Source: Dichotomocladium elegans (lineage: Eukaryota > Mucoromycota > Mucoromycetes > Mucorales > Lichtheimiaceae). From it: a stretch of DNA of 64,000 bases. The notes under the pieces are model-generated. The model was not told the DNA's origin. It saw only the letters and a list, made by a program, of their open reading frames with translations, and made no database searches. Made by a program: the position numbers and the translations under genes. Shown piece after piece: positions 763 to 61,660 of the stretch (its first letter is position 1; the number at the start of each line of letters is the position of its first letter). The stretch is taken from contig JAIXMN010000011.1 of assembly GCA_025716815.1 (NCBI GenBank), positions 372,001 to 436,000 of the forward strand, read 5' to 3'.

Positions 763-2111
763 ATGTTCTGGTCTTCCAAACACTTTGAATTTGACGACAT
801 TCCGGACCTTGAGGGAAAGATTGCTATCATCACTGGAAGCAACACTGGCGTATGTCTATTTTCGTTCAATGACGATGTATGGTGGTGCCCCTGACAAGCG
901 TTGTTAATATAGATTGGCAAGGTTTGTGCACTTGAAATGGCGCGCAAGAACTGCGAAATGTAAGGAAAACACAGAGAGCGCGTATGAATGACGCTAGGTG
1001 ATTAGGTGGAACATTGTTAAATTAAAAGACCTGGCGAGCAAGTGTACTTGCATGCCGCAATGTTGAAAAGGGCGAAGCAGCAGTCGCCGAGATCAAGCAG
1101 GCGACGGGCAACGATAAGGTCGTGTGTATGGAACTTGACTTGCTTTCGCTGGAAGCCGTTAAGCAATTTGCCAAGACTTTCAAGGAGAAATACAAGCGAC
1201 TCGATATTCTAATGAATAATGCCGGCGTGATGATGTGCCCGTTTGCACTCTCGAAAGATGGTAAGCTTGACTTACGAGGGTCGTACTTCCTTATCCAACC
1301 CTTTTATTTTTAGGTGTCGAGTCCCAATTCGCAACAAACCATCTTGCGCCATATTATCTGACAATTTTGCTGTTGCCACTGTTGGAGCAATCTCCATCTA
1401 GCCGTATTGTCAACGTCAGCTCGATGGCCCATCTACTGGTCCTTGGAGGCTTCAGCTATGAGAAAATCAGCGATGAGAAGGCCTATAACCCAATCTGGCA
1501 GTATTCCATCACAAAGGTAGGACGGGAAAGGGCATCATAAAACAGCAACTAGATCGAATGATGACAATCGGGCTTCTATCATGCAGGCCTGCAATATCCT
1601 GTTTACTCGGGAGCTGAGCAGACGTCTTGAAGCAAAAGGTGTCGATAACGTAAGAAATAGAGCTCACAAACCATCCGGCGTCAACGGTCTTGACAGTTAT
1701 CTACGAACTAGGTCTACGTGAATTGCAACCATCCGGGTACTGTGCAGAGCGAACTTTCTCGCTACGTTGCAAATCCCGGGTCGTGGAGGGAGACGCTGTA
1801 TAATAAGCTTCTGACTATTACTACCGAGCAAGGCGCTCTGACGCAACTCTATCTTGCCACAAGCCCAGATATTGAGATGAAGAAGATTAAGGCTAAATAT
1901 TATGTGAGCGAATGACATTTGTGTCCTCACCAGCATTGGTGCTTGTTCAATTGCTCACTCGTGGTTGGCATGTCTTGTTTAGGTGCCTTACGCTAAACCT
2001 GGATGGAACACTCCTTTCACATCATCTGCCGAAAACGCTGCTAAGTTGTGGGATTTCACTGAACAGCTCCTCAAGGAGAAGATGCCTGATTACCCTGGTG
2101 CTAGCATTTGA
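763..2111 (+). CDS. short-chain dehydrogenase/reductase (retinol dehydrogenase / WWOX-like SDR)
   Basis: NAD(P)-dependent oxidoreductase of the classical/extended SDR type; the substrate cannot be told. Seven exons fit one frame of about 312 aa: 763-849, 913-959, 1043-1260, 1314-1516, 1587-1649, 1712-1903, 1983-2111. The Rossmann signature ITGSNTG is split by intron 1 and continues as IGKV. The NNAG motif follows in exon 3 (LMNNAGVM), the catalytic Ser strand is IVNVSSMAH, and the active-site YxxxK is YSITK at the end of exon 4. HPGTV follows, as in light-dependent protochlorophyllide-reductase-like and RDH-like SDRs. I chose ATG 763 because the 46 upstream in-frame codons have no family character. 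No break was seen. Confidence 0.85.
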
Positions 2112-2341
2112 TCGTATTATTCTATTAAAACCCTGCAAACTCTTGCTTTATTTATTCGTGGTAAACGCCGACATGATTTCCACGGTGTGGTGAGACACAT
2201 GCAAGAAGTCCGAGAACGAGCTATGGTTTTTGTTGACATGAGCATTTAAACTTGCGTGTTCGTGTTGCAGTTGTTATTGTTTTTACTTTTTGATATCTTC
2301 CCTCTCCCCATTTTCTTGACCTGTACTGTTTTAGAAGCACT

Positions 2342-3095
2342 ATGCAGAATCACAATCATGTTCTCATGAGTTTAGAGATGGAGTTCAAACGAATGGACCG
2401 CATGTTTGAGCAAGGCGACATGCGTGTTTTTGGTAATTTGCATGATTCGGCAAGTGCACCCATCTAATGGTCCATTGCTTGCACTCTAGGACGAGATACG
2501 GATCGCATCTTTAAAGAGCTCAATATAATTCGAAGAAAGCAAATCGACTTGGCGCGCGACCATATATCACTGGAGGCTCTGAGTGACCAACCGTAAATAG
2601 CGAAACAGACTAGAGAGAGAAAGAGGATCACTCTTTTTATTAACACAGGCTTTCCATAAATTGTTGGGTGTGCAGATCATCCTCTGGAACGGATGACTCA
2701 GACCAAGGATATAAACAAAGCGCGGAAAACTTCCACAAGAAGGAAGTTGCATTGAAGAATCTGATGTTCAAGGTATTCCGTCCTCATGATGGCCGCCCGG
2801 AAGAAAAAGAGAGTGAGTTCCAAGTTATACTAACAGGGCCATATGTCTATTCAGCTCGATGATTTGGGCGAGTCTATGTATGCTACATAAATGTTTTTCT
2901 TTTAATGAGGTTCCAGGTCCTCACGCTAAGGTTTACAGGAACCGATTCAGAGAACTGTCAGACCCTGACATGCGCAACTACCGCCAGGCGCAGACCGATC
3001 CAGCTCTGGATTTTGCAATCGAGGCGTTCGAGGATCCCGGACTCAAGACTCCTCGACAAGAGGCATCTCCGCTTCTTGCTGGCCAACAGCAGTGA
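2342..3095 (+). CDS. small coiled-coil protein, CCDC28-like
   Basis: Four exons (2342-2432, 2490-2592, 2676-2812, 2917-3095) join in frame to about 169 aa. The N-terminal half is a predicted helical region rich in charged heptads (FKRMDRMFEQGDM, then RIFKELNIIRRKQIDLARDH). Its pattern, a short 'G-x-FG' linker between two helices followed by R..Q..LA..H, resembles the CCDC28 family. The middle is acidic and Ser-rich and the C-terminus is polar and probably disordered. No enzyme motif is visible. The stop lies 111 bp from the convergent methyltransferase gene. The CCDC28 assignment rests on pattern only; a lineage-specific coiled-coil protein is the alternative. Confidence 0.5.
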
Positions 3096-3206
3096 AGAAG
3101 GGACTGTATTGCCTTGCAGCCTTGAGATAGTATGGCAATCATTTATGCGGATAACATTCTCTCTGAAGGACATCGACCATCACCAACAATAACAATAAAT
3201 AAGAGG

Positions 3207-4524
3207 CTACAATACCGTTTCGTCTTTTACTATTTTCTTGCGTCCAATGGCGTAGTGTAAATTCGACCATGCACCGAATTCGTGACATTCTTTGGCGACG
3301 GCTTCCATGATCTTGTCGTACTTTGCTGGCAGCATAGACCAATCCTCGCACAGCCGCGGCTTCATCGAGTCGATCAGCCGTTCTGTCGCCTCGAGCCCTA
3401 GATCGCCGAGCTTTCCCAGCCATGCAATCGGGAATGAACGGTGTCCACTCTCCACGTCCTCCACGTCATCGTGCGCCTCAAGCGCTTCATGGATCTTCGC
3501 TCCTATTTTCATCACAATATTGCGTGTTTGCAACGACACCGTCACTGGTGGATGTATGAGCAAGGTGTTGTTTCGATTCAGTTCCTCCAATGCTATGTAC
3601 CTCGCATGAGCCATATGGATAAGTTGGGCCCAATGTCCTGGACCAAACCCCCCGGTTCAACCAATTGGATCCATCCCCCAGGCTTAGTGACTCGGATAAT
3701 CTCGTTTATTACAGTGGTCCACTCATCCTGCGTATAATCGAAAACAGAGTCATGCTGGGCGACATAATCAAATGTGTTATCCGGAAATGGCAGCTCTTTT
3801 CCTGCGTCAGCAATGCAATAATGACAATTGCGGGGCGGATTGCTAGCGTGAGAGTGAGCAAATCAAGCCCCTCTTGCCTGCTGCGCGTCTGTCTCTTCCC
3901 GTCTACATACCTAATAGGGAAGATGATGAAATCTGTGCCTGTGAAGTGCGAGTTCGGGTATGCTTCGGCCATGTCCTGGGTAATCATCATTATCGCTTAG
4001 GCAAACGATGAAGCAATAAAATCAGCCAATTTACATTAATCCAGAAGCCAGGGCCTGCCCTGAATATATATAAGTTAAGCCGATCAATTTTTACGCTTCG
4101 ATCGAACGGCCATAAACCTTACTTTACTGAAAGGACTCTGATGCCCTTGTGTAGGTCATCCTCAATTGGAGGGAAAACAGTTCTTAATAATGTCATATTC
4201 CATAAGTGAATTTGTCCACCGCGTCGAAAAGGGCCCACATTGTCTTACTTTCCGAAAACCGTCCTATGCATATAATTAGACCTTTGTGCGCTGTATACAG
4301 TTGCTAACCGGAAGAAAAGGAACATACTTGAATAAATAATAGTTAATCTGCTTGCGTTCAATCTCTTCATCGTCGCAAGGTAGGAAATGACTTTTGTTAC
4401 CCGACTTTTTATAGAAAAGTCTCCCTGTCGAGTGCTCATAAAAGCTAGTAGGAAATTTCGGGTCAGGGAATCCCTCAACATCGGCTCCCGATGAGCTGCA
4501 GCATAAGGATTTGCTAGCGTACAT
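3207..4524 (-). pseudogene. SAM-dependent methyltransferase with a frame break (pseudogene or sequence error)
   Basis: Fungal class I SAM methyltransferase. From the 5' end: exon 1 (about 4524-4328) carries FLPCDDEEIERKQINYYLFK; a 15-nt exon gives TVFGK; the next gives FPPIEDDLHKGIRVLS; then AGPGFWIND, DMAEAYPNSHFTGTDF (motif II acidic region), ADAGKELPF and the conserved KPGGWIQLVEP. Directly after this the frame breaks. The run of six C at 3648-3653 (six G in sense) leads to a stop, whereas one more G would continue into the 3207-3614 frame (AQLIHMAHARYIALEELN). The first Gly of SAM motif I is read as Lys (VKAGPG for VGCGPG), although splice placement affects that residue. It shares a 245-bp divergent promoter with PWP2. 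The break could be a sequencing error or early decay. Confidence 0.7.
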
Positions 4525-16283: not shown

Positions 16284-16507
16284 TTGAATAAAAACAACTC
16301 TCTTTTTATATGATTTCCGACCAGGGTGGTAGTGGTGATACAAGCGGCAGTAATCGACCATTGTCCCCCAATCATTACCGGTTAGCGGGCTTCGTAACGT
16401 TGGAATGGGAGGACAGTCGAGGCGTGTTGTAGAAGAGGTGGATAAGCCGATAACCCTGCTCAGTACTGTCTGTAGAAGCGCAGTGTTATGAACAGTAGGG
16501 CTATGAC
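16284..16507 (+). repeat. dispersed repeat, copy B
   Basis: Diverged direct copy of the 15772-15995 unit, starting ATTGAATAAAAACAAC. It is followed at once by the twin-hairpin element at 16508-16550. Confidence 0.75.
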
Positions 16508-16550
16508 ACCCAGGAGTTATCCTGGGTAGTCCCGGCGATAACCGGGACGG
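16508..16550 (+). other. twin hairpin with CGATAA loop, locus 1
   Basis: Two back-to-back inverted repeats: ACCCAGGA-GTTA-TCCTGGGT, then GTCCCGG-CGATAA-CCGGGAC with seven perfect pairs. Related sequence with a different stem but the same CGATAA loop occurs at 44741-44775 and near 61259-61290. Function is unknown; see the findings. Confidence 0.7.
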
Positions 16551-16901
16551 ATAGACAGGAGGAGAGAGCCAGCACGCCAGAAGAGACAGGCGGCGGCTGC
16601 CAGGGCTCCAGACGAGGGAATGGCGGCGGCGGAGGGAAGGAGCGGAATGGGGCCTGAGATGGCAGCGAAAAAGAGCGAAAGGAGCGGAAGGGTGTTCAGG
16701 AACTCCTCTCTTCGATGGCTCATCAAGCACGGGTACGATTGGTTAATCTATAAAGGACAGTGGATGTTAGTTGCAATAAAATAATTTGGTATTATAGCGA
16801 TCATACCGGATAAGTCCATGGAAGAGAGGGTCAGGATGAAGTTGATGGAGAAAGGAGATTTCTCGACTGTCCATTATTTATAGGAAATCAAGGAGGAGCA
16901 G

Positions 16902-17135: not shown

Positions 17136-17269
17136 TTTGGTATTTTTAGCCCTAGGCCGCTCGCATAATATATCTCAGCAATCGACATGCCGTCCGTGAT
17201 GCTGTTAGAAACGGGATTACATTGGGCGTATGGGTCGGTTTGATAAGAGTTACATGTGCATTTATGTTA

Positions 17270-17425
17270 TAGTGGCTGCCCTTTATAGTGATACCCTCGG
17301 TTCCAGGAAATCGCATCGCCATAGCGAATTGGAATAAGCCATATCTGGTAATTTTGTTCTGTATAAAGTGTATCGCTATAATGAATTATCATTATAATGA
17401 ATATCACTATGAGGGGCGGCCACTG
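17270..17425. mobile_element. 156-bp MITE with TA target-site duplication
   Basis: Imperfect terminal inverted repeats of about 28 bp. The left end reads TAGTGGCTGCCCTTTATAGT and the right end, reverse-complemented, reads CAGTGGCCGCCCCTCATAGT. Both ends abut TA (17268-17269 and 17426-17427), the target duplication of Tc1/mariner-type transposition. The inside is AT-rich and has no open frame. Confidence 0.8.
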
Positions 17426-17639
17426 TAATTGATTTCCCGTTAATCCTACCATCTGAATGCTTGTATGAGACTAGTCAAATAAGAAAGAATAGATAATATG
17501 TACTTCCGCGAAGAAAACCGCTTGTTTACTCTCACTCGCTCTTTTCTTTGATACACTCCTTTCATCGACAACCTATTGCACTAAAACAGTCCTTCCAAGT
17601 ATGAACGTTCATCGACCTGCAAATTACGAAGGCGCCAAG

Positions 17640-18325
17640 ATGGCTGTTGCTTACACCAATAACATTCAAATGCGACTCGGCCGAACACTTCCGGCGGGCT
17701 ATCAATGTCTTGCTGAACATTCGACAGCGGAAAGAGGAACTTGAAGAGCAGCTGATTGGCGAAGGTCTGGACGCGACACAAGTCAGTCAACGCATCCGAT
17801 AGACAATCATTACACCCGCAACAACATTCAAACAGATTGTAGCTCGTCGAAAGATATCCAGAGACGACGTCCCCGAAGACCCAGCTTATCTTCAGGAAGC
17901 TTTCGACCCCATCCGGCCAATTGTCGATGCCTACACCAGTGCCCACGCCTTTGACAACGATAGCATCTACTACGATACAAATATTCATCCAATCCAACAT
18001 ACGGAAGCCTTTTACCAGCTCACTCTCCTTTTAGAGCGACTTCAGTTGCCTACATTTGCCTGTTTCCCTCTTCGTCGGTCATGGTCTCTGCCATACATAG
18101 TGATTGACACAAAATTCACATGGCAAAACAATCTGGGTCGCTCATGGGCCAAAAAAGTTCCTTATCCTGGCGGATGGGATCATGTCATCGATGTCCATTC
18201 GAAAGCTCTCAAACCTGCAGAGAATGGAGTACATCGATTTCGTGGTACACTTGAAATGGATGGCGTAGGAGTCTCCATTATCAAGAAGAGAAGGGACAGG
18301 GACGCACCCCCAAGAACCGGTGCAG
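17640..18325 (+). pseudogene. Fanzor-like nuclease fragment (locus 1)
   Basis: This plus-strand stretch aligns by eye with the middle of the longer Fanzor relic at 44.8-47.0 kb. Matching blocks are AYTNNIQMRLG, RRAINVLLNIRQRK, FDNDSIYYDTN, FPLRRSWSLPYIVIDTK and FRGTLEMDGVGVSI, the DG.GVS beta-hairpin that precedes RuvC-I in Fanzor/TnpB proteins. The frame shifts at least once near the start and carries TAG after SQRIR. Everything after the hairpin (RuvC-I, zinc ribbon, RuvC-III) is missing. An 11-bp direct repeat AACCTATTGCA flanks it at 17570-17580 and 18476-18486, which may mark an insertion or be chance. Confidence 0.7.
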
Positions 18326-44425: not shown

Positions 44426-44740
44426 TTTGACTGAATGATAGTTCTAGAGTAAAAAGAGAAAAGAAAAATCCCCTTCCCGTTTTCAAGCGCAAATTTATTC
44501 TCAACCCCAAAGGGCATTGCATCCAAATGCTCTGGGTTTTTTTGCGTGTCTCTTATACTTCATTTTCAAAAATAAATGTCGCATAGAATTATATAAATTT
44601 GTCGTATCACTAGGTAAAAAGATTTCGCATCCATGGATTAAACCCTGTTAGTCAGCGGAAAACACTGTACCTTCTCCAATCCCGTTAACTTACAACACAC
44701 CGTCCTTCCAAAGGAAGGGGGCTTGCCCCGAAGGGATGTG

Positions 44741-44775
44741 GTTATCCTGGGTGCGCCAGCGATAACTGACGCGGA
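44741..44775. other. CGATAA-loop hairpin, locus 2
   Basis: GCGCCAG-CGATAA-CTGACGC, six of seven positions paired, preceded by TTATCCTGGGT as in locus 1. It lies just beyond the 3' end of the Fanzor relic, the side where Fanzor guide RNAs are encoded in known systems. Function is not shown. Confidence 0.6.
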
Positions 44776-44791
44776 AAATTCTTGGCCGGGG

Positions 44792-46959
44792 TTACGGTCG
44801 TCTCGACCCGCCAGAGCGTGCACCTCGTGGCCTTCCTGGCCTCGTCCGTCGTGGTCTTACGCTGCGCTGCTCTGGTTCAGGTGAGTGTGGCCTTCCACCA
44901 GCTGCGGACGCTTGTGCAGCATTTCTTCTCTGAAACCTTGCTGGGATGATACCATCTTCCCGAAGACCCCAGAGGATATGATGCATGTTGAGATTTGCCG
45001 CCAGATTCAGGTTCCATAACCTTGGTTGACGAACACCCTCTGCCATGCCTGCTGTACGGTTTTGATTTGTGCATCTATTGAAACATCAAAATATTAGAAT
45101 CTTTTGTAAATATAACACAACATGCCCGGCCTTCATACCGTAGCAGGCCATGGCAGATCGTGAGCGGATTGTCGGGTCGTCAATATGGGCGTGGATAAGG
45201 AACCATTTTAAAGGTAGCAAGGATTTCATTGTCAAATACAGGGCAGCACTTGCTTGTCTTGTGCTCGTCGATTAAATAAATATTGCAATTGTTCTTCTTC
45301 AACAGCCGCCGGAAGCCGACATCACGGATAGGCTCGTGATATCTGGTATGCGGCGCAGACCAATTTCCCATCACGAAAACGGACTTACTGCCAAACTTCG
45401 CGTTCAAAGAGTCGAGAAGCTTTTCATCTGTTTGCTGCTTTTTGTTGTAAAATGCTGACAGGCGAAGTTTTCGAAAAAGAAATTGCGGGTTCGGGTGGTT
45501 CGTAGTGGTTGTCGCGTAGTAAGACTTGAGAACTACAGAGACCCTGTTCTTGGCGGCGAGGTATCCGTCGTAGTTGGGCACGGAAAGCGTATGACTTTGA
45601 AATTGGGATAGATACTGCTCCGCCAACGCGACCTCGGGTCGCTCTAACTTGGGTCGTTCTCGGAGTCTGCGGTACCGTTTGGTCTTGCGTGTATGATCTT
45701 GAAGCTGCTTCGTATATCGGAAGGTCTGGTGGTTGTCGGGTGAAGAGTTCTCATGAACGCAATACAACAGGTCTCTCCTGCCAGGACCAATGGTGACCCA
45801 TTGTCCTCTGTAGTCTTCGTTCCGGACTATCTGTGGGTTGACGTATTCGATATCTTCGCTCTGGATGCCAAATCTCTGTCCGAAACCCGATTGAAGGCCA
45901 TTTGTCTTCTTGAACACAGTAACACCGATGCCGTCAATGTGAATAGTCCCACGGAATTGGAGCATTCTTGGGGTTTGAAAGCTCTTGATTTCAGGTTTAC
46001 AACCCGTCTCCAGTACTCCATATTGCTTGTGTGGGATCCATTTTGCAGCCCAGGATATGGTAGCAAAGGATTTTCGTATCGATCTCCATGTAGCATGGTG
46101 ACCACGAGCGACGAAGTGGAAAACAGTTGAATCCGCGTATTCCGTTCTGTTGACAAACACGTGCAAGCTGGAAGAAGGCGTTAAAATGCTTAACGGGATT
46201 GGCCTTGGCGTCGTAATAGATGCTCTGGCGTTGGAATTGGTGGTTTTGGGGGTAAGGGTTTAAGACAGGCTGTAGGATATCGTATGCTTCCCGAAGAAAC
46301 CCAGGCCCGGCATTAATGTCTTCCCTCAAAACACCTCGAAGGGCAATTGCTAGCTTGAACCCTGTGGCATGCCGGGTGATGGTTTCATAAAGGTCCTGGC
46401 GTACTTGATCGGGGCTTAGGCGCTGTGCGATTAACTCCCGCTTGCGGTCGGCTTTTCGCTGACGAAGATTCAGGATGACATTGATGACACGCCGAAGGTG
46501 TTGCCCGAACCGCGTGTGGACATTATTCACGTAAGCAGTATAAATCTTGGTGCCTTGGTAAGAAGAACATTGCTGGGAATAAGGGAACGCAGGCCTTTCG
46601 TATCCGGATATCCGAATGTACTCATCCTTGTGGGGATTAATTAGTTCTCGGATGCGGGCAGTTTCACCTTGGGTGCGGCGTCCGGCTTTGTTAACCATGG
46701 AGAGCCAAACTTCTGAAAAGAACTTCTCCGTGATGTTTTCCTGGATGTTAAAATTTGGATCGCGCGCTGCCTCGTTGATGAAAATATATTTGGCGAACGC
46801 GTACGCCTGTGTTGTGGTGTTGTGGACAAGGTCGACCAACTGATACAGACGTTCACGGTACTGCTGTCGCCAGCCGATACCCCGTATGGACGATTTCACC
46901 CCGATTATACGGCCAGTGCGCATGCCTTCGGGAATGACGGGGCGGTGGGGTTGGGCCAT
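44792..46959 (-). pseudogene. Fanzor (eukaryotic TnpB-like OMEGA nuclease), degenerate
   Basis: Two long minus frames (46959-45997 and 46166-45180) and a third (45046-44792) together cover one Fanzor protein. The N-lobe runs from MAQPHRPVIPEG through AYVNNVHTRFGQHLRRVINV to FPLRRSWSPCYMEIDTK. After it the sequence needs at least two frame changes between about 46080 and 45960 before FRGTIHIDGIGVTVF. RuvC-I reads WVTIGPGRRDLLYCV, with Gly where the family has the catalytic Asp (DPGRRDL). The alternative catalytic Glu is kept in YLIDEHKTSKCC, but the zinc ribbon CPxC is CPVF. A short intron then leads to WNLNLAANLNMHHI, where Asn replaces the RuvC-III Asp of WNRDxAAxxN. An Arg-rich tail ends it. 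It was catalytically dead before or while the frame decayed. Confidence 0.78.
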
Positions 46960-47269
46960 TTGGTGGGTGAAGACCCAGGGTATATTATTTCTTAGTATCG
47001 CAGAGCCGATATGAAAGCGGCCGTATTACCTTTCAATCGTAAATGTGGTGCTGTGTTATTTTCTGTATATGTGGATAGTGGAAAGGGACAGTTTGCTTGA
47101 GCATCCCTATTTATAGTGTCAGCAATGACTGCCCATAGTTTGAGTACTGCTTGTCGCATAGGTGATTGTTTAGAACAATGGAGCTATTATGATGCAATAT
47201 TCCAGATGCATCTCCATAGTCTTTTTCCCACTGGGTTCTTTAATGAGGTTTTACCGACGTGAGGGCGGT

Positions 47270-47760
47270 CTGAAATCAACAATGAAATCCCAAACAATTC
47301 CAAGAAGTAATTCCAAGAGACCATCTCAAGAATAATCCGATATATATCCGGCACTTGTGTAGTGTAGGAAGATTGTACTTCTTTTCGTACTCTCTCAGTC
47401 TCTGACAACACAACAAAACACGACACTGCTGCCAGGGCCCCTTTCGTATTGTAACGCCCATCGCTGTGCTGAACGAACATGGATTCCTAGCTGTTTTGCT
47501 GCAGCTGTGCACTCAATACCTCCTCAAACACCAGTTTGAGAAATCTGACTTTGTCTTGGTCAGTGTACGCTGTGTACTGCGCTTGATCCCCGCTTCTTTC
47601 ATCCGAATGTCTGGATCCTTTCGCTTGGGAATGTGTGTGAGAGTAAGCTCAGGCTTATCTTTGCACGATATGCTACGCAGATATTCAGTGTAAGAACAAA
47701 CGGATTGATGTGAGTACATTACCTCATCAATGACATAGTCCATAGATTCAGGTCAGCCAC
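47270..47760 (-). pseudogene. IS630-type transposase N-terminal fragment
   Basis: Closely matches the N-terminal part of the 18.5-19.5-kb relic: DYVIDEVMYSHQSVCSYTEY, LRSISCKDKPELT, DIRMKEAGIKRS and KTKSDFSNW. It has frameshifts and is cut off before any DDE catalytic motif. The cut lies near a sequence (47233-47275) that recurs at 57470-57510. Confidence 0.65.
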
Positions 47761-48008
47761 GCTCTTCAACGACATGACCTTGGCCATCGTCGTAAAAAAA
47801 AATAGATTGCTCATTTCAGAATGTAAAAGTTTATAAAGAGAAAGAGTCATAAGGATGGGATGGATTCGTGACATCTTTCCGTGTATGCATGTGATATTCG
47901 ATTTGTCGTCACGCGTAAAGATTTCTGGGCAAAATGCGATTTGTATTTTCGCGATCCTGCGACTTCCAGAACTGGCAGGGTGCGACTTTGATTTTGAAAA
48001 ATATTGTA

Positions 48009-48329
48009 TAAATATATAAACCTGTGAACTAGGGTCGAAAAGAAAGGTGGATGATGTGGAGAAGCTATAGATACGGGCCTTAGATATACAATGGGAAGAA
48101 TGCTCCCCCCACCTTAGAAAAAATAAACATATAGAGCGGTGTGAGTATGTGGGAAGGGAAGTGAATGTGTATGAAATAATTAGTTTCCGAATCTTGAATA
48201 CAAGGATAAATGATGGTAGCCCCAGCTCATGTACATGGACGTAATCACGTAATTATAGAAAGGAAATTGGTATAGACGGGGTAAGAAGTATGAACAGAAA
48301 CAAGTAAGGGTGAGTACGTTGAATGATCT
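48009..48329. other. flank between element end and Pumilio gene
   Basis: AT-rich DNA with no coding signal; it contains the Pumilio 3' UTR. Confidence 0.5.
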
Positions 48330-58709: not shown

Positions 58710-59884
58710 CTCAGAACTAAAAAAGTTCTGATGTTTCATTTTTCCGTGGCGATCATTGGTCACGTGACCTGCTATTTTCTTGTGCAGAATCTAACAAAGG
58801 CAAATTGCTAACCATGGTCCAGCGCATGAATCAAATGCCACTTTGTTGGTATCCTTGCGGAGATATCATAAAAACGATAGTTTCATGAATTTTTGTATCA
58901 TCTGTTGCGCTTTCCACGCTGTAACACATCAGGACGTTCATTCCTTACCACGTCCATGAATGGCTCAGATTCTCAATGGCGCGCGTAACTTCTCCAAGGC
59001 TGGTCACAAGAGTGAGTTACATCGGGTGTGGACATGACCTGAGGACGATCAAATAGATGTAACGCTCATATATGGTCCATAGCATCAGAGAAATGGCTCC
59101 ATTGGCTTATCTATTGCACCACACGCTTCCCAGCGAATGACGAACTCAATCCCTGACTATTATCTTGACAAGTTGTTAAGGAGTACTTTAATGGATTGTT
59201 TCTTTTTTTAAAAAAAAAAATTAGCGCCGAAGAGCACCTTAAGGCGATTGCTTGGTTCTGGATCGTCTGCTGATTTATAAATGCATACCAATCTGCCAAA
59301 GTGCAAGTTCAACAACATAGAGTTGAAGTTTACTGGGTTACCAGTGAATATGCAGGTAATTGTAACTTTCAACTTCAAAGGTAAGGTAACCCATCGTAAT
59401 TTCCCATTAATTGCTATGTCACTCACTGACTTGATAAAATGAATTGGAAGCAATTCGCGTTTGATCTACTGGACACATAAATAATGTATGGCATTAAAGA
59501 GGATAAAACACGCTTGATTCAAACACTAGCCTTGGTACCACCCAGCCAAGAAATGTCCTTTGTGTTCATAAGGATGCATTTAATTTCGGCGTCGGTACAG
59601 TAACTTTGCAAGAAGGTGATAATGGGAGGCCAACATATCCTGGTGTCTAAATACAAGATGGTTTACTTGGTGGACCACAACTACCCTACCTAAAGAAGCG
59701 GACTATTTGGGTAAGCTAAATGCATTGCGCTTTTGGTTACTATTGATTGAACTTCAGTTTTATTCAGCGTATACAGCTCGCCTCTCATCCACTTATTTTT
59801 GACACAAGTTAAGTTCACATTGAGCTACCGCTGGTGGATTGCAGAAATTAAACCGCGCGGTTATGAACTATCGAATATATAGTG
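58710..59884. other. intergenic, no gene assigned
   Basis: AT-rich. Minus frames at 59111-59299 and 59208-59453 have no recognisable motif. Confidence 0.4.
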
Positions 59885-60020
59885 TTTTCCCAAAATTGAG
59901 GTCGTGCCCTAGCAATACTGATGTCGCCGGATCGCAAAAGTAGAAGTCAGATTTGCCCAGAAAACAACAAAGTGATGACAAAGCACGGAGAAAGATGATG
60001 AATCTTTATATCGATTTGCG
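59885..60020 (-). repeat. inverted copy of the element right end (locus 3, outer)
   Basis: Contains GCCGGATCGCAAAAGTAGAA and the following 80 bp (GTCAGATTT..GCCCAGAAAACAACAAAGTGATGACAAAGC). This is the reverse complement of 61545-61635 at nearly every position, preceded by a TAGTGTTTTCC-like end. Confidence 0.75.
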
Positions 60021-61124
60021 ACGTAGACAATATAATCTGGCGTGCACAGTATTATGTTCTTGTTACATAATTTGGGAGCTATTATCGTCGGCTGCTGGAC
60101 AGCTATTCCATTCCATCAGGACTAATCAAAGTTTGTTCCAAACCCCAATAGGCACCTTTGTCTTTCTATGTTGTTCCGGCCCCAAAAGGGGAATGCCGCT
60201 CTGCCTATGATTAACCTCAGATATCTTTATATTGCCACAAGAACATGTAATACTCATCTATGTAGCTGTCAACTTCTTCTGATTTCTTTGTATCTTTCTC
60301 AAACTCCCCGTACTCTTTGAATGCAGAATTAAAAACGTTATGGTCTCGGCTATCCATCCTCTACAATGCAATGTTCATGAAAATTCCCCATTTTTGAGAC
60401 AGTGAACTACACAATCCTTGAAGTTCCTACTGATATGCCAACAGTAAAGGCGGGAGTGCTCGATGGAAATATGGCCCAGGGAACGGCGCACGAGGCCTTG
60501 CCGCTGTCTCTTACAAAATACGCACGGAATGCTTTCAGGATAACCCGTTTGTTGAAACAGTGCTGATTAAAAGGTCCTTTATTTTGACTCATTGTGGCCT
60601 GGTTACTCTCTGGAGCTTTAAACTGATAATACAGTAACCCCACACTAAGACGGTACATAAATAGAATGCTCGCAAAGGGCGGATTTAAAAATGCCGAATG
60701 GTGTAGAGAAGACAAGTCGGTTTGGGCACCACCGCATATAACCAATAGGCCTGCGCTCGTAGCAATTCCCTGTATTCCTCAAAGGGTAGCTCTGAGCTTA
60801 TTTGTTGATACGCATATCCAACAAAATGATATATATATATATATATATTCGTATGAAAGAACCAGATGTAAGGCGCAGTTACTCCATATACGTTGTCTGA
60901 GAGAAGGTCATATTTTTCAAGTTGATGTTTGGGAATGCTTGAGTGCACAGCTACAACAAACCAGCTATAAAACATGTGCTTTCAATGCAATGGGCTTTAT
61001 AGCGAGAAAATGAACTTGGTAGCATTAACGGCAAACATAGATGTAGGGATTGACTCTGACTCATAAAGAAGAGCGTAAGAACATTATTTTAGAATTGTTG
61101 GACGAGTATTGATTGATTGTCCTA
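60021..61124. other. interval between inverted element ends, no gene recognised
   Basis: 1.1 kb between the inverted copies. Overlapping frames on both strands at 60407-61013 show no transposase or nuclease motif. An (AT)n run sits near 60829-60847. Confidence 0.4.
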
Positions 61125-61660
61125 TAGTGACTGATGGAGTTTCGCATAAAATTATACGAAATTGCCGTACCAACAGGTAAAAAGATTTCGTAGCCAACAG
61201 AAAAGATTAACTTCTCCCTTGTACACTTTGACTTACCAACCAGGCTCACACCAGACGTATCCAGATGCGCACATGTCGATAACCATGGCGGGGGATGGTG
61301 GAGCGCCTGGAGCAGCGACAGGAGCAAGGCAGGAAACACAAAACCAACGACAGGGGGACGTTGGGGGAACAAAGACGAGACACAGGAAGCACAACGGTGA
61401 AGCGACGGGGAAACAGCCAACTCGTGGCCGCCATTGAATGATCTGGTATTCTGTTAGCCTCTCTTCCATGGTCTATCAATTAAGAGTGCGATTGGTCAAT
61501 GACAAAGGGCAGAAGGCGTTAGATTCGACTGAAAGGCAAATCGACATAAAGATTCATCACCTTTCTCTGTGCTTTGTCATCACTTTGTTGTTTTCTGGGC
61601 AAAATCTGACTTCTACTTTTGCGATCCGGCGGCTTCGTATTTGGAAAACAGTGTACTATC
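61125..61660. mobile_element. internally deleted derivative of the Fanzor element family (locus 3)
   Basis: About 0.53 kb with the left-end signature of locus 2 (CGCATAAAATTATACG ... GGTAAAAAGATTTCG), a CGATAA hairpin at 61267-61290, and the right-end signature (TTTTGCGATCCGGCGGCTTC) ending near GTGTA at 61655. No transposase or Fanzor sequence remains between them, as in a MITE-like derivative. The left border is approximate. Confidence 0.6.

Follow-up and report, generated by a model that had tools for sequence, protein, structure and literature searches.

Introduction

The retention that TnpB confers on its transposon is proposed to operate through RNA-guided re-cutting of emptied donor sites. 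For the Fanzor1 proteins, published passages describe RNA-guided DNA cutting after a TAM (CATA for SpuFz1, ATN for PpFz1), the guide being the 3' flank of the RNA. One question then is of what use a Fanzor is to the transposon that carries it. In its relevant passages Saito 2023 (PMC10432273) leaves such a use as a possibility, discusses TnpB-like retention for Fanzor as a possibility only and suggests, for SpuFz1 and its ghost loci, an action in trans. The association as such is on record: the initial annotation of the locus considered here linked a Fanzor to a transposon family, and the part of PMC3627910 that deals with these elements had already published Fanzor1 in Tc/mariner transposons in 2013.

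Here we analyse a stretch of 64,000 nucleotides from Dichotomocladium elegans (G000:C13:372001-436000, henceforth the window) against the genome of 39.4 Mb to which it belongs. Our preferred reading, to which as a whole we assign a probability of about 70%, is that the locus derives from a non-autonomous IS630-type element in which a Fanzor1 and a guide-RNA scaffold would have replaced the catalytic half of the transposase, which would spread by a transposase supplied in trans, and whose persistence the Fanzor would aid.

The element and its copies

The minus strand of the window carries, at 44556..48008, a decayed copy of a Fanzor-bearing Tc1/mariner (IS630-type) element, here termed family A, delimited by genome copies and shared ends. 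The 5' terminal inverted repeat (47980..48010) includes an inner TA at 48007-48008 and an outer TA at 48009-48010, and the 3' repeat (44554..44585) an inner TA at 44556-44557, the flank being TATA in both cases; 48008 and 44556 lie on the inner TA of the respective element end. The initial annotation had placed the Fanzor between terminal inverted repeats with TA at each end, the configuration of Tc1/mariner (IS630-type) elements, and the same ends recur in the genome copies, reading, in the Fanzor sense, TATACACCATTTTTCAAAATCAAAGTCGC at the 5' and CATTTATTTTTGAAAATAAAGTATA at the 3' end.

Family A comprises at least 39 loci including the window copy (the best 39 of 1364 candidates, the other 38 being the sequences compared), of which 32/39 have a recognisable left and 36/39 a recognisable right end, loci without a recognisable end being either truncated or beyond the pattern through divergence. 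The proposal that the locus was once a single composite element is thus borne out. That Fanzor and transposase fragments became adjacent by accident between chance repeats is scarcely credible, since this copy number, with common ends recognisable in most loci, excludes a chance origin of the arrangement and leaves nothing in favour of such an account.

Intact sister copies measure about 3.9 kb; compared with its relatives, the window copy is shortened at two places, one in the 5' region and one directly inward of the 3' end. In the intact copy L020 (3951 bp; element coordinates, el, correspond to L020:1008-4958) an IS630-derived 5' part containing a helix-turn-helix transposase remnant (el 1-598, in the Fanzor sense) is followed by a stretch that includes a dispersed repeat (el 1052-1228, with a second occurrence at window 17268-17428), by Fanzor exon 1 (el 1470-3316), an intron (3317-3385) and exon 2 (to 3668), by a structured region (el about 3680-3770) and by the IS630-derived 3' end (about 3766-3951). 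The window copy has the IS630-derived 5' part, that is, the end and the helix-turn-helix remnant without a DDE domain, at 47427..48010 on the minus strand and the IS630-derived 3' end, common to relatives without a Fanzor match, at about 44556..44690 on the same strand. Outside the 39 loci there is one more Fanzor copy, L051, partial in the sequence compared, as well as a deletion derivative of 1.2 kb, L054.

The genome search with the element ends that had been proposed as a check yielded the copies and their common ends; empty TA sites, the other object of that search, were not recovered among the genome copies, which counts against the preferred reading. Of the nested insertions, L026, L040 and L013 did not yield a clear empty site; the only approximate pre-insertion site comes from a single one, L035 (C31), where a family A copy has entered an older copy, in inverted orientation, at its 3' end.

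The Fanzor gene

The intact copies encode a spliced Fanzor1 of 709 amino acids with one intron and the residues D401, E574 and D639. Published passages describe a RuvC D-E-D with a DPG motif and with its Glu preceding the zinc finger by six residues, and the intact copies show these as IDPGRRDL, DEYKTSKCC and WNRDLAA. Among the best 39 of 1364 candidates 15/39 copies are intact with D-E-D, having no indel, no stop and GT-AG splice sites. L018 has an open frame with AT at the donor site, and the other 23/39, including the window copy, have gaps or stops or align in part only; in this count a gap within the intron was enough for a copy to be scored as not intact.

The identification of the gene as a Fanzor was right: in a PDB search an intact sister matched the solved Fanzor1 structures PpFz1 of Parasitella (E 1.5e-119, the closest) and SpuFz1 (E 1.5e-42), which establishes its sequence kinship to biochemically characterised Fanzor1 proteins; identity between that sister and the window pieces is 92-93%. 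The details of the gene had to be revised. The frame at 46959-45180 is Fanzor, as had been proposed, and consists of two frames rather than one, exon 1 (45139..46959, minus strand) being interrupted where the frame changes, within about 45965-46051. The second frame at 45046-44792 is likewise Fanzor with a mended extent, belonging to exon 2 (44792..45074, minus strand; zinc finger and RuvC-III) behind a GT-AG intron on the same strand at about 45075..45138, which was placed by eye against the intact copies. Some of the motifs originally quoted in support are lesions, since GPGRRDL corresponds to IDPGRRDL and WNLNLAANLN to WNRDLAAALN in intact copies; the RuvC-I Asp is lost and the RuvC-III Asp has become Asn, so that two catalytic Asp are missing, the D-E-D is absent from the window copy and this copy is dead.

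A profile search had also been suggested; Pfam gave no match for the window pieces and, for L020, a zinc-finger match below cut-off only, so this profile library alone would miss the Fanzor, which the PDB search recovered. PF26935 is the precomputed domain in most of the protein relatives. These number 113, and the named ones are all fungal (Mucoromycota; Syncephalis and Coemansia among others). Identity is 47% for the relative with the best score and 51%, over 55% of the query, for one short relative. Taken together, the observation that opened this analysis is confirmed and its interpretation supported, with the qualifications that the element is non-autonomous and that the Fanzor-Tc/mariner link was already in the literature.

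Selection on the Fanzor and on the transposase remnant

The changes that distinguish the copies were divided into those carried by one copy and those carried by several, with ratios expressed as relative N/S (rows: Fanzor exon 1, n=39; exon 2, n=37; transposase remnant, n=38). In exon 1 the synonymous/non-synonymous counts are 130/270 for singletons (0.70), 66/50 for shared changes (0.26) and 23/5 for changes in at least 5 copies (0.07; p=4e-6), and in the remnant 43/102 (0.76), 21/47 (0.72) and 7/21 (0.96), respectively. The difference between Fanzor and remnant in raw counts has p=7.5e-4 for shared changes and p=3.7e-5 for those in at least 5 copies, the copies being kin and shared changes therefore not independent in these counts. 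Exon 2 falls from 1.08 among singletons to 0.27 among shared changes (p 0.041; small counts). When exon 1 was read in two wrong frames, singletons gave 0.98 and 1.02, shared changes 1.15 and 1.79, and changes in at least 5 copies 9.3-9.4 (1 against 26), an excess that arises, as expected, because true-frame third positions carry the frequent changes. An earlier run with intron codons included gave the same picture.

The Fanzor is under purifying selection across the copies and the transposase remnant of the same element is not. This contrast bears on the idea that the Fanzor is a passive passenger, contributing nothing to a transposon that spreads by a transposase supplied in trans. Such an idea would accommodate the 24/39 copies, the window copy included, that fail the intactness test among the best 39 of 1364 candidates, as well as a Fanzor activity that is here a prediction from sequence; it is at odds with shared Fanzor changes that are strongly biased to synonymous while those of the neighbouring remnant are not, and we regard it as improbable. 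Because of the same contrast, the simplest reading would be that the Fanzor helps the element to persist.

The transposase remnant and its DDE-bearing relatives

The assignment of the transposase fragment to the IS630/Tc1 type holds, in that the 5' part of about 598 bp runs on into DDE sequence in related loci, and an intact relative contains DDE_3. Among the relatives examined for the 5' end (L047 and seven further loci), five of IS630 type (L047, L048, L049, L050 and L052) are 82-91% identical to family A over the 5' 598 bp, with the match of L050 starting at position 83. The shared part leads into frame-broken DDE sequence in L048, L049, L050 and L052, and L047 is an internal-deletion derivative; L047, L049, L050 and L052 have no Fanzor match in the stretch examined. 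In L053 the 5' part is followed by a family A-type 3' end, making it a deletion derivative.

Beyond its DDE part L048 also carries a Fanzor remnant in convergent orientation, with 38-60% identity over aa 139-361. A second Fanzor fragment, in the window itself (17619-18288, plus strand), is 42-50% identical to family A over aa 139-361 and lies directly against an opposite-strand, convergent IS630 transposase (19474-18373, minus strand), and because L048, on another contig, repeats both the arrangement and the Fanzor range, this pair looks like a unit that has moved. Decayed remains of IS630 elements are also dispersed over window 59872-61636, and one of them includes part of the family A 3' end.

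Within family A a DDE match between the helix-turn-helix remnant and the Fanzor is found in 0/39 loci (best 39 of 1364 candidates); no DDE transposase is encoded in the element, which is therefore non-autonomous. The DDE half has no match at all in the examined stretch of 34/39 loci. The remaining loci are L018, L040 and L041, where the match lies outside the element, L037, with an opposite-strand transposase at a truncated 5' end, and L044, a family A copy cut short within exon 1 (its homology begins at el 1521). Here a decayed co-directional transposase with DDE (L044:1-1100) lies 475 bp upstream of the Fanzor, which counts against the preferred reading.

The remnant itself carries a nonsense codon in 32 of 39 family sequences, which comprise L051 and all but one of the 39 loci. 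This stop is absent from L001 (the window copy), L009, L010, L011, L016, L034 and L041 and from 7/7 IS630 relatives at that site (L047, L048, L049, L050, L052, L053, L056), so that the stop is derived and most copies were made after it arose. The stop-free copies are not simply the most diverged, L043 and L045 being older by identity and yet carrying the stop.

A candidate source of transposase exists elsewhere in the genome. L055 encodes an intact 475-aa transposase (DDE_3 E 1.8e-30; HTH matches below cut-off) and, convergent to it, a second, intact Fanzor (609-aa frame; PpFz1 E 6.8e-115), and L056 a second intact 475-aa transposase, 99.6% identical to L055 over 2320 bp, a shared stretch that extends into the last exon of the second Fanzor. 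Only 4/116 matches to the 475-aa transposase are near full-length without stops (on C57, C44 and, at 58%, an inverted pair on C31), the rest being partial or with stops. That pair, at G000:C31:604362-605696 (plus) and 610245-611579 (minus), consists of open 452-aa IS630 transposases, 58% to that of L055, in inverted orientation about 4.5 kb apart. The ends of the intact 475-aa transposases differ from those of family A (TACACTCTTTTCC, with no outer TATA), which counts against their being the family A helper.

The omega-RNA candidate and the TATA flank

Downstream of the gene, at 44674..44780 on the minus strand, lies a putative structured omega-RNA, predicted as a stem-loop, a possible pseudoknot and a UUCG-capped second stem; it matches the RNA model R1 at 137 bits, the window copy being among the model's 7 source sequences. 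These comprise 6 family A sequences and 1 from the end of another element (the L052 neighbour). Pairing is maintained in 98.2% of cells overall vs at most 50% when the alignment is slid. Stem 1 covaries, with 100% pairing and 4/7 pairs changed on both sides, all of these from the one divergent L052 neighbour, which counts against the candidate; in that sequence's own best fold part of the pseudoknot partner is taken by another hairpin. The pseudoknot (UUAUC/GAUAA) can pair in 97.1% of cells but hardly varies, hence gives no covariation signal, and the UUCG-capped stem is kept in 96.4%. Folding z for the core is -2.99 in L020, -3.10 in the neighbour and -2.04 in the window copy, and -1.48 for a longer L020 3' region; Rfam gave no match in L020 up to E 1. 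A further omega-RNA-like hairpin pair occurs at window 16459-16556 on the minus strand (R1 32.1 bits, E 4.3e-7), with a core almost identical to that of the L052 neighbour and unrelated sequence beyond it.

The scaffold stops about 185 bp short of the element's end, and a guide from the genomic flank would therefore need a long or processed RNA. IS630-derived sequence directly adjoins the scaffold, which suggested a constant guide aimed at the ends of IS630 elements; this idea was set aside, as the matching stretch of L049 differs at many positions by eye.

The left end reads TATA in 32/32 usable family copies (7/39 dropped: 6 without a pattern match and L036 mismatched), while the outer TA is present at the right end in only 22/36 (p=3.5e-5 against the left; 3/39 dropped: no match in L046, mismatches in L011 and L041). 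In a control pattern count of left ends TATA occurs in 78/95. By left-end class (57 rows with letters) it is found in 21/21 TACACTC..TTC, 15/15 TACACCA, 9/13 TACACTA and 0/5 ..TTCCAAAACC ends and in three single variants (3/3). By coordinate comparison 18 of the 21 TACACTC..TTC ends are beside DDE hits, 1 beside a Fanzor hit and 2 beside neither. From this distribution TATA goes with the transposon lineage, ends beside DDE hits included, and its interpretation as a footprint of the Fanzor TAM was not supported, on a control that is weakened because L048, of the TACACTC..TTC class, has a convergent Fanzor remnant.

TATA at the left ends of DDE-bearing relatives could also result if the main target of the Fanzor were the IS630 family at large, reached in trans, and not the Fanzor's own donor sites; its presence there speaks for such an action. 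So do the recurrent Fanzor-IS630 junctions of this genome, an IS630 end being joined to a Fanzor 3' end at about five loci as read from coordinates (C57:1659500, which is L055, C44:470383, C28:716688, C57:1226527 and C31:940408), and so does a weak R1 match (28.1 bits) in the 3' part of L049, an IS630 copy without a Fanzor match; however, the latter is in part IS630 3'-end homology. We consider a predominant action in trans unlikely, if less so than a passive Fanzor.

A proposed mechanism for persistence

In the preferred reading the Fanzor1 gene and a hairpin RNA would occupy the place of the transposase DDE domain, with the 5' part of about 598 bp and the 3' end kept, and the element would spread by cut-and-paste, using transposase that sister IS630 elements, whose ends are related, presumably provide in trans. 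The family A Fanzor probably cuts DNA under RNA guidance, as its kinship and its D-E-D suggest. The omega-RNA would read the guide adjoining the element and direct a cut at the emptied donor site, the cut site would then be repaired from a copy still holding the element, and by such means the Fanzor would raise the element's chance of persisting, most likely through re-cutting of donor sites in the manner proposed for TnpB. That this cutting in itself might keep a transposase-less lineage alive, as a eukaryotic counterpart of TnpB-driven retention, we put forward tentatively, at somewhat short of even odds.

Comparison with known systems

A search of a paper library for literature on transposons in Dichotomocladium elegans found none, and in a search combining purifying selection with Fanzor the match, in its relevant passage, concerns PGBD5. 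The closest precedents are the elements PUl-4, PGv-1 and the TIR element SPu-1, which, in the passages of Bao and Jurka 2013 (PMC3627910) devoted to them, have Fanzor1 between TIRs flanked by TA, as here. Some elements in that account likewise have confirmed mariner TIRs and no transposase, and SPu-1 resembles family A in being multi-copy with intact ORFs. Unlike the elements as described in those passages, family A keeps a helix-turn-helix remnant without the DDE half and has DDE-bearing relatives with related ends in the same genome.

Similarly, the SpuFz1 element Spu-1 of Spizellomyces punctatus is, in the corresponding part of PMC10432273, a TIR element with an omega-RNA after the stop codon (the RNA being a candidate here) and a conserved dinucleotide before the 5' repeat, as in family A; the authors report in that part no transposase flanked by its repeats, whereas family A has an identified IS630 relative. 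The nearest solved structure to the family A Fanzor (E 1.5e-119) is that of PpFz1 from Parasitella parasitica, described in passages of PMC11423790, which differs by a RuvC insertion of about 100 aa; the alignment to family A skips chain residues 1002-1094 (fusion numbering), which fall between its two matched stretches.

With Fanzor1 in Tc/mariner elements known since 2013, the present analysis adds the hollowed architecture of the element, its partner family and the contrast in selection. With 15 intact of 39 copies (the best 39 of 1364 candidates), relatives with an intact DDE transposase and a contrast within one element, the role of a Fanzor that the described systems had left as a possibility becomes testable.
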